Assembly (NCBI GenBank): GCA_905182395.1
Contig: CAJJBL010000018.1
Coordinates: 1-64,000, forward strand
From: an alpha proteobacterium SCGC AAA536-G10
GTDB taxonomy: Bacteria > Pseudomonadota > Alphaproteobacteria > Puniceispirillales > Marisalimonadaceae
Length of the DNA stretch: 64,000 nt
Reading direction: 5' to 3'
The notes beneath the pieces were generated by a model. It searched no databases and had not been told where the DNA came from. It saw only the letters and a list, made by a program, of their open reading frames with translations. A program made the position numbers and the translations under genes. Positions 10,554-12,922 of the stretch are shown here, in pieces (the first letter of the stretch is position 1; each line of letters begins with the position of its first letter).

Positions 10554-11786
10554 CTATTTTACTAAATTATCTTTTCTAACAATATGGTCAGATATTTGTT
10601 GAGCAGTAAAAGCGCTTAGTGTCCATCCCAGGTGACCATGACCTGTATTATAAAAAATACCTGGCAATTTCCCACTTCCCACTTTTGGAATCATACTAGG
10701 GGTCATTGGTCTTAGTCCAGCCCAAGGTATTGCATGTTCTGTTGAAATTAAGGGAAATAATTTATTACACCAATTGATTAACGGATTAATTCTATCAGCT
10801 CTTATATCTTGATTATATCCATTAAACTCTGCAGTTCCGGCAACTCTAAATCTATCTTTTCCAAGTCTGCTAGAAACTATCTTAGCTTTATCATCTAATA
10901 ATGATACATATGGAGCATTTTTAACACTTTTAGCGTCATTAAGAAGTAAAGTAATAGAATAGCCTTTAACAGGATAAATATTAACGTTATCACCTAATTT
11001 AGAAGCAAATTGTTTGCTCATAACGCCTGCACAAATAACAACACCATCATAATTAGTTTTATATTTTTTATTTTCAATTTGAAAATGAATTATAGGATTT
11101 ATTTTATTATGATCAATTAATGAAATTTCTGTATCATAATTAAATTTAACACCTTTTTTTTGACAAGCATCTGCTAGTGACTTTGTAAATTTATGAATGT
11201 CACCTGACATATCACTTTTAGTATAAAATCCACCTATAAAGCTTTTAAGGTTTATTGTTGGTTCAATTTTTTTAATTTCATCTAACGTTACTTCTTGTCT
11301 GGTTAATCCAGCTTCTTTTAGCCATTTACTTACTTCTCGCCCATGTTCTAGAGCTTTACGGTTATCACAAAGATGTAATATACCTTTTTCTTCAAGATTT
11401 AATTCAATATTTTCTGCTTTTAATATTCTTTTGAATTCAACTCTACTTTCAATAGCCATTTTGGCTGTTAGAATAGTATGATTTTTATGGTTAGGGATAT
11501 TGCTTATAAAACTAAATAACCAACTGAGTTTATGAAAACTAGGCTTAGGATTAAATAAAAGAGGCGCATCTTTCTGAAGCATCCATTTTAATCCAGTAAC
11601 TATAGTAGACCAACTATTCCATACTTCAGCATTACAAGCTGAGAGTTGTCCACCGTTGGCAAAACTAGTTTCCATTGCTGCATAACGGTTTTTTTCGAAT
11701 ACAGTAACTTCATATCCTTTTTCTAAAAGTTGATAAGCGGTAGTAATACCTGTTATACCAGCTCCAACAATAGCTATTTTTTTCAT
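10554..11786 (-). CDS. DadA-type FAD-dependent D-amino acid dehydrogenase / glycine-oxidising candidate
   Basis: This is a DAO-superfamily flavoprotein (410 residues). The N-terminal Rossmann motif is VGAGITGITTAYQLLEKGYEVTVFEK, followed by the DadA-like stretch ETSFANGGQLSACNAEVWNS and LKWMLQKDAPLLF. The C-terminal flavin-contact region is WAGLRPMTPSMIPKVG and GHGHLGWTLS. DadA enzymes oxidise D-amino acids to keto acids and feed electrons to quinones. The 5' leader is a tandem glycine riboswitch, so in this organism the true substrate may be glycine or a compound that yields or derives from it; that is inference. A GGAG Shine-Dalgarno lies 8 nt before the ATG. Confidence 0.9.
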   Translation of the reverse strand: MKKIAIVGAGITGITTAYQLLEKGYEVTVFEKNRYAAMETSFANGGQLSACNAEVWNSWSTIVTGLKWMLQKDAPLLFNPKPSFHKLSWLFSFISNIPNHKNHTILTAKMAIESRVEFKRILKAENIELNLEEKGILHLCDNRKALEHGREVSKWLKEAGLTRQEVTLDEIKKIEPTINLKSFIGGFYTKSDMSGDIHKFTKSLADACQKKGVKFNYDTEISLIDHNKINPIIHFQIENKKYKTNYDGVVICAGVMSKQFASKLGDNVNIYPVKGYSITLLLNDAKSVKNAPYVSLLDDKAKIVSSRLGKDRFRVAGTAEFNGYNQDIRADRINPLINWCNKLFPLISTEHAIPWAGLRPMTPSMIPKVGSGKLPGIFYNTGHGHLGWTLSAFTAQQISDHIVRKDNLVK

Positions 11787-11794
11787 AAAATTTA

Positions 11795-11993
11795 CTCCGT
11801 AACAAGCGTTGTATAATTACAACTTACCCCATCTGTCACGGAACCTGAAAGATTGACCAAGATTAAACTTAGCTTACCCCTTCGGTGGATGATTGATATC
11901 ATCTCTCTCCAGATTGTCTACTTTTGATGTTTCGGGTGCCTGAGAGTTTCCGGGGTGGTTGCTCCTTCGGCGGCTATAAAATAACTCTCTCAC
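11795..11993 (-). promoter_or_regulatory. Tandem glycine riboswitch controlling the dadA-like gene
   Basis: Read on the minus strand, two glycine aptamers follow each other. Aptamer I (about 11993-11912) has GAGAGAGTT, CGCCGAAGGAGCAA and CTCTCAGGCA. Aptamer II (about 11911-11824) has GGAGAGA, ACCGAAGGGGTAA, CTTTCAGG and GACAGATGGGG. These are the conserved core elements of both aptamers. Then come a small palindrome (11808-11823) and the dadA Shine-Dalgarno. TTCCGTGACA of aptamer II (11834-11843) can pair over 10 bp, with two wobbles, with TGTTACGGAG (11795-11804), which holds that Shine-Dalgarno. This suggests translational ON control by glycine. A promoter-like TTGTTA...TAAAAT lies upstream in 12000-12046. 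Confidence 0.93.
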
Positions 11994-12046
11994 AAAAAAA
12001 GACTAAGACAATTATCATTTTACAAATTTTATAATTAATAACAAGT

Positions 12047-12922
12047 TTATTTTTGTTTAATAGAGTTATTTTTTGTAACTATAAATACACCAATACTAGA
12101 TAAGAAAAGGCCAAAAATATCCAAGTGAGTAAAATTTTCTTGGAGAATTAAATAAGCCATAATAGCTGAAACAGGAGGAATTAAAAAAAATAAAGTAGAT
12201 GTTTTACCTGCATCATTATATTTCAGCATCCACATTAAAATTAAAAAAGCACCAAGAGAAATCACTAAAACTTGCCAAGTCATTGCTATTAAAAAAGATG
12301 ATGTAAAATTTATAAAATAATTTTCAAAACATATTGCCAATAATAAATGAAAAATAGAAGCTCCTAATGCTTGAAGAAAGTTATTAGCTGATAAAGACAA
12401 ATCATTAACAATTCTTTTTTGCCAAATTATACCTATAGAAGATGAAATTAACCCAACTAATCCAGAACATAAAGCTAAAATAGTTAAGTCATCATTTAAA
12501 TCGGATACAATCACTATAGCCGCTCCTAAAAAACCTATTAATATACCAAACCATTGGATTTTAGATAAAAATTCTTTTAAAATTTTTTGTGCAAGGACAG
12601 CCGTCATAATAGGTTGTAAAGATACAATCAATGCAATTATGCTCGCAGAAGCTCCTTTAGATAAAGCATAGAAAACTCCACCTAAATAGAAACCATGAAA
12701 AAGTATACCGCTAACTAAAGCTTCTAAAACAGATTTAAAACTAAAAAATTTTCTCTCAGAAAATAAAATAAAAAAAACAAAGAAAATAAAGGCAACTATT
12801 ATAAACCTGTAAGATAAAGCTATAAAAGGAGATGCATCTTCTACAATGATTTTACTAGTTATAAAAGCTGAAGACCAGAGTATAACAAAGATTAAAGGAA
12901 AAAAATTATTCAATTTAAGCAT
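12047..12922 (-). CDS. EamA/DMT-family transporter
   Basis: This integral membrane protein of 291 residues has about ten hydrophobic helices arranged as two EamA repeats, the drug/metabolite transporter fold. It begins LNNFFPLIFVILWSSAFITSKI, a typical EamA first helix, and the second repeat starts near LALCSGLVGLISSSIGIIWQK. Family members export amino acids or metabolites or take up various solutes; the substrate cannot be told from sequence. It lies upstream of the riboswitch-dadA unit on the same strand, but the riboswitch leader probably starts a separate transcript. Confidence 0.85.
   Translation of the reverse strand: MLKLNNFFPLIFVILWSSAFITSKIIVEDASPFIALSYRFIIVAFIFFVFFILFSERKFFSFKSVLEALVSGILFHGFYLGGVFYALSKGASASIIALIVSLQPIMTAVLAQKILKEFLSKIQWFGILIGFLGAAIVIVSDLNDDLTILALCSGLVGLISSSIGIIWQKRIVNDLSLSANNFLQALGASIFHLLLAICFENYFINFTSSFLIAMTWQVLVISLGAFLILMWMLKYNDAGKTSTLFFLIPPVSAIMAYLILQENFTHLDIFGLFLSSIGVFIVTKNNSIKQK

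Follow-up and report, generated by a model that had tools for sequence, protein, structure and literature searches.

The leader of dadA in the window, the whole 64,000-nucleotide stretch of alphaproteobacterial DNA analysed here, is probably a tandem glycine riboswitch that acts as a translational ON switch; this reading is well supported by comparison with homologous leaders. Across the sequences compared, a predicted glycine riboswitch is the rule for the PRK12409 subfamily of the gene product in alpha-, beta- and gamma-Proteobacteria. The chances appear about even that the name 'D-amino acid dehydrogenase' is wrong for PRK12409 and that the enzyme is a glycine dehydrogenase, which would replace the glycine cleavage system in the SAR116 family of the window, with the single glycine riboswitch of the genome placed on dadA and not on gcvT.

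The Rfam covariance model identified two adjoining RF00504 aptamers on the minus strand, directly upstream of dadA. The whole-window scan returned aptamer II alone, and both aptamers exceeded the cut-off in a whole-genome search. They are the only RF00504 matches in the genome of the window (1.43 Mb, 123 contigs, 85% complete). The earlier note had read a tandem glycine riboswitch at this place and had named the Rfam scan as a test that could refute it; the model matched, and both scores lie above the RF00504 gathering score of 32 bits. The position of the element was confirmed, but its 5' limit had been understated because P0 and P1 of aptamer I extend to about 12010. The features of the leader and the gene are as follows, in the direction of transcription.

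12006..12010, minus strand: P0 leader strand UGUCU, which pairs with the linker AGACA (11919-11915)
11918..12004, minus strand: glycine aptamer I (RF00504), 55.6 bits
11991..12001, minus strand: 5' strand of P1 of aptamer I; the 3' strand lies at about 11929-11921
11823..11922, minus strand: glycine aptamer II (RF00504), 59.1 bits
11915..11919, minus strand: P0 linker strand AGACA, partner of UGUCU
11910..11914, minus strand: 5' strand AUCUG of P1 of aptamer II, from the covariance-model alignment; invariant in 50 leaders
11833..11843, minus strand: anti-Shine-Dalgarno strand UUCCGUGACAG, consisting of J3/1 and the first bases of the 3' strand of P1 of aptamer II
11831..11835, minus strand: 3' strand CAGAU of P1 of aptamer II, from the covariance-model alignment; its CAG (11835-11833) is common to the anti-Shine-Dalgarno strand
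11808..11823, minus strand: nested hairpin GUUGUA-AUUA-UACAAC within the masking stem, from the minimum free energy (MFE) fold
11795..11805, minus strand: UUGUUACGGAG, the complement of the anti-Shine-Dalgarno strand including the Shine-Dalgarno (SD) sequence, which pairs with 11843-11833
10554..11786, minus strand: dadA-type FAD-dependent dehydrogenase of 410 amino acids, PRK12409 subfamily (NF009074; DAO domain PF01266)

The tandem aptamers are thus accompanied by a P0 leader-linker helix, as in the kink-turn tandem glycine riboswitches. Pairing was tabulated over 50 aligned SAR116 leaders. One pair of P0 is A-U in 36 leaders and G-C in 14, which is a double change, and UCU:AGA replaces UCA:UGA in the genus of the window. 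P1 of aptamer I is paired in 96% of cells with G-C/A-U exchanges; in the genus of the window it is broken by an internal mismatch. P2 of aptamer II is paired in 100% of cells, and double changes are present. The stability of the full-leader fold is not unusual (z = -1.18). In the MFE fold of the window, the U-rich 5' part of the leader pairs over the start codon, and only this genus has the longer U-run. A promoter-like TTGTTA-16-TAAAAT is located just upstream of the leader (12044-12017, minus strand) and is no better than chance. An EamA transporter gene lies further upstream on the same strand and ends at 12047.

The anti-SD strand (11843-11833) and the downstream segment (11805-11795) form 11 unbroken pairs, or 12 counting a flanking base. 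The Shine-Dalgarno sequence GGAG is located at 11798-11795, 8 nt from the ATG of dadA, and is included in these pairs, so the complementarity that the earlier note saw between the 3' strand of aptamer II and the dadA SD segment is real. When the 38-nt downstream segment was shuffled with its dinucleotides kept, the 12-pair stem was equalled in 38 of 20,000 cases. The masked state and the aptamer state are mutually exclusive because the mask uses CAG (11835-11833) of P1 of aptamer II together with the J3/1 core.

The mask is conserved in the 50 SAR116 leaders, where 96% of cells are paired and one pair is G-C in 33, A-U in 13, and G-U in 3. The mean identity of the SD-side pairing segment is 0.88, compared with 0.63 for the adjoining linker. 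Anchoring the register at the SD gives pairing in 88.6% of cells, and sliding it by 1-4 bases gives at most 54%. Partner shuffling within the SAR116 family at a fixed register was not significant (3019/10,000; 22 family patterns). This shuffle carries no information, since the aptamer holds its strand nearly constant, and the compensatory changes inside the family are found mainly at one pair. A wider comparison was made by a cross-lineage permutation, which covered 40 different aptamer strands of alpha-, beta- and gamma-Proteobacteria. The summed complementarity to the own SD was 600 against a swapped mean of 460, and the own partners were ahead in 20,000 of 20,000 permutations, with lineage composition uncontrolled. 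The 32 non-family leaders alone gave 449 for own and 349 for swapped partners, with 0 of 20,000 permutations reaching the own value, again with lineage composition uncontrolled. The J3/1 strand and its SD partner are CCGUGAC/GUCACGG in SAR116, CCAUGACAG/CUGUCAUGG in another SAR116 genus, CCGAGACAG/UUGUCUCGG in Acetobacteraceae, CCAAAC/GUUUGG in Burkholderiales, and CCAGAAC/GUUCUGG in Stutzerimonas. Single distant leaders are individually weak when their stems are compared with shuffled SD regions (11 of 60 at p <= 0.05), and the mask is not seen in every one of them.

The complementarity could be a by-product of a conserved J3/1 meeting a G-rich SD. Many leaders carry CC in J3/1, SDs carry GG, and the family-only shuffle was not significant. 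However, the complementarity reaches past the GG and tracks the lineage-specific changes of J3/1, and the own partners led in every cross-lineage permutation; we regard a by-product as very improbable. The earlier note would have been refuted by the lack of an alternative pairing in homologous leaders, and the pairing proved to be conserved with compensatory change in both related and distant ones. The aptamer and SD-masking pairings are mutually exclusive and conserved by compensation, as expected for a translational ON switch.

According to the proposed mechanism, the J3/1-P1 strand of aptamer II would pair with the SD segment in the absence of glycine, and translation of dadA would be blocked. 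When glycine is bound and the two aptamers are joined by P0, P1 of aptamer II and the aptamer core would hold the masking strand. The SD would then be free as it is transcribed, and DadA would be made when glycine is abundant. The control is most likely translational because no terminator-like site is present in the window at 11700-12200 and the stem contains the SD. Terminator-based control is known from some glycine riboswitches, chiefly those of Firmicutes, and masking can secondarily expose an mRNA to Rho. Intrinsic or Rho-dependent termination in place of ribosome-binding-site masking is nevertheless very improbable here: besides the lack of a terminator-like site in that interval, the conserved stem holds the SD close to the start codon and no U-tract follows it.

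The direction of the proposed translational switch follows from its design. Glycine binding should unmask the SD because the glycine-bound aptamer needs the masking strand. In nearest-neighbour calculations, which have no ligand, tertiary or kinetic terms, the state with P1 of aptamer II lies 7-16 kcal/mol (median 11.9) above the masked state. In nearest-neighbour constraint folding, imposing P1 of aptamer II raised the accessibility of the SD by >0.1 in 26 of the 50 leaders. Since the masked state is favoured by 7-16 kcal/mol, switching would need to be co-transcriptional; if the modelled energies are right, aptamer II has to be captured by glycine while the SD segment is still untranscribed. 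We infer such co-transcriptional action from the folding model. The ON switch of the earlier note is therefore retained in part: the anti-SD strand does lie in aptamer II and the design predicts ON, but folding keeps the SD masked, and the ON direction is drawn from the design. It is improbable that glycine instead turns dadA off through a ligand-bound fold that masks the start region. In roughly half of the leaders, the SD was not predicted to become more accessible when P1 of aptamer II was imposed, and glycine OFF switches have been described for transporter genes (PMC6944388). Against this, the sole conserved SD-masking strand is needed by the aptamer core and P1 of aptamer II, so ligand binding should compete with masking, and ON switching is typical of degradation genes (PMC6944388).

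The protein encoded by dadA passes the NF009074/PRK12409 model with 633 bits (cut-off 494). It stays below the cut-offs of canonical DadA (NF001933; 319 < 383 bits) and of the glycine oxidase ThiO (TIGR02352; 141 < 251 bits). Like both of these, it is an FAD enzyme of the DAO fold, a group that deaminates small amino acids; unlike them, it falls in PRK12409/NF009074. Its named homologues come from SAR116-cluster genomes, and the closest solved structures are distant glycine oxidases only.

Of the 58 genomes of the family of the window, 53 have RF00504; in 52 of these it is a tandem, and in the remaining one the match sits at the end of a contig. The tandem lies directly before dadA in all 52 family genomes in which the downstream sequence could be read. 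Outside SAR116, RF00504 is upstream of dadA in 59 of the 60 best homologues of the PRK12409 subfamily, which include those of Rhodobacteraceae, Rhizobiales, Burkholderiales, Halomonadaceae, Stutzerimonas, Marinobacter, and Granulosicoccus. The expectation in the earlier note that a DadA-type target is uncommon was thus mistaken. The sole one of these 60 without RF00504 near the gene is from a Limnohabitans MAG (L080). In Phyllobacterium salinisoli, dadA has a cobalamin riboswitch (L070:1466-1645, minus strand; 107.6 bits) on the opposite strand, some 1.4 kb upstream of the gene. Beyond the family, 31 riboswitch loci were read in the order: 16 are before gcvT, 14 are before dadA, and one runs off a contig end; every riboswitch of the order with a readable target precedes gcvT or dadA. 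Lower-scoring dadA paralogues in two genomes (G070 and G092; 248 and 272 bits) have no adjoining riboswitch, and the riboswitches of those genomes are on gcvT. Two dadA frames (G077:C21:14914-16131 and G081:C4:68885-70093) have one TAA in the matched stretch despite an upstream riboswitch, possibly because of decay or an assembly error.

Searches for the glycine cleavage system gave no GcvT match over the cut-off in the 58 family genomes. The longer sub-cut-off matches were in frames of about 370 and of 460-1023 amino acids, lengths that we take to be those of DmdA- and dimethylglycine-dehydrogenase-like proteins; the best one (G016), in a frame of 794 amino acids, scored 233.2 bits where 235.85 are required. 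For GDC-P, the same 58 genomes gave just 20-29-bit matches to part of frames of about 600 amino acids, and none was full length. GcvH was found in none of the 10 family genomes that are at least 85% complete, and GcvP was likewise absent from these 10, bar one fragment of 17.6 bits. As a positive control, the Gcv searches gave matches in 10 of 14 control genomes. At the level of the order, over-cut-off matches in 55 genomes were divided into dadA only (22), gcvP only (19), both (3), and neither (11), a near-exclusion with a Fisher p of 1.1e-4 when relatedness is ignored. The genomes of genus g18 (G096-G102), most of them near-complete, lack gcvP, the PRK12409 dadA and the glycine riboswitch altogether, and two have a gcvH match. 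In G061 and G062 (genus g6), the riboswitch precedes dadA, and gcvP lies on another contig. Three further genomes (G063, G074, and G075) have gcvP without any RF00504 match.

The gene control and the absence of the glycine cleavage system suggest that DadA may dispose of glycine. Whether glycine is the main substrate of the PRK12409 enzyme is, in our judgement, evenly balanced. The enzyme would convert glycine into glyoxylate and ammonia, with the electrons passing to the respiratory chain, and the glyoxylate would enter central metabolism via malate synthase G. In the SAR116 family of the window, DadA would stand in for the missing glycine cleavage system. Malate synthase G was found in 42 of 43 genomes that are at least 90% complete; the genome of the window (85% complete) gave no match, and a genus-mate has the enzyme. 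Against this route, the fold family comprises both D-amino acid dehydrogenases and glycine oxidases, and the order includes the three genomes with both dadA and gcvP and the 11 with neither. It is possible, at a tentative level, that the riboswitch works as described and that the enzyme oxidises D-alanine, D-serine or sarcosine, glycine merely signalling amino-acid excess. The NCBIfam name is that of a D-amino acid dehydrogenase, no sequence feature that proves glycine specificity was found in PRK12409 DadA, and the glycine oxidases among the closest solved structures are distant. Such a substrate fits less well with a glycine riboswitch that is near-universal before the subfamily in three classes, with low-scoring paralogues that have no adjoining riboswitch, and with the near-exclusion of dadA and gcvP.

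The riboswitch class, the tandem layout, and SD masking are already known. The leader shares with the gcvT-type tandem of Vibrio and Bacillus two aptamers with a conserved core, a short linker, the P0 helix, and a predicted ON response for glycine use. It differs in its target, which is dadA in place of gcvT or a transporter gene, and in that the mask strand and the SD sequence are lineage-specific. Reported targets of glycine riboswitches include gcv, transporters, glcB, and serC (PMC2211319; PMC3766115; PMC6944388; PMC12452182). Kazanov 2007 described a SAR11 glycine riboswitch on glcB, the malate synthase gene (PMC2211319). That riboswitch likewise belongs to streamlined marine alphaproteobacteria and has a non-gcv target at glyoxylate-malate metabolism (PMC2211319; PMC5069720). 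However, SAR11 has both gcvT and glcB as targets, whereas here the only target is an enzyme that may turn glycine into glyoxylate, in a family that lacks the glycine cleavage system. Among open-access papers, none was found that links a glycine riboswitch to a D-amino acid dehydrogenase, and the association with dadA may already be recorded elsewhere.

The useful point is that, across the subfamily, a glycine sensor is tied to an enzyme whose annotation points to D-amino acids, and that an abundant marine clade has lost the glycine cleavage system. It offers a direct, testable correction of the annotation and a proposal for how SAR116 may route the carbon and nitrogen of glycine.
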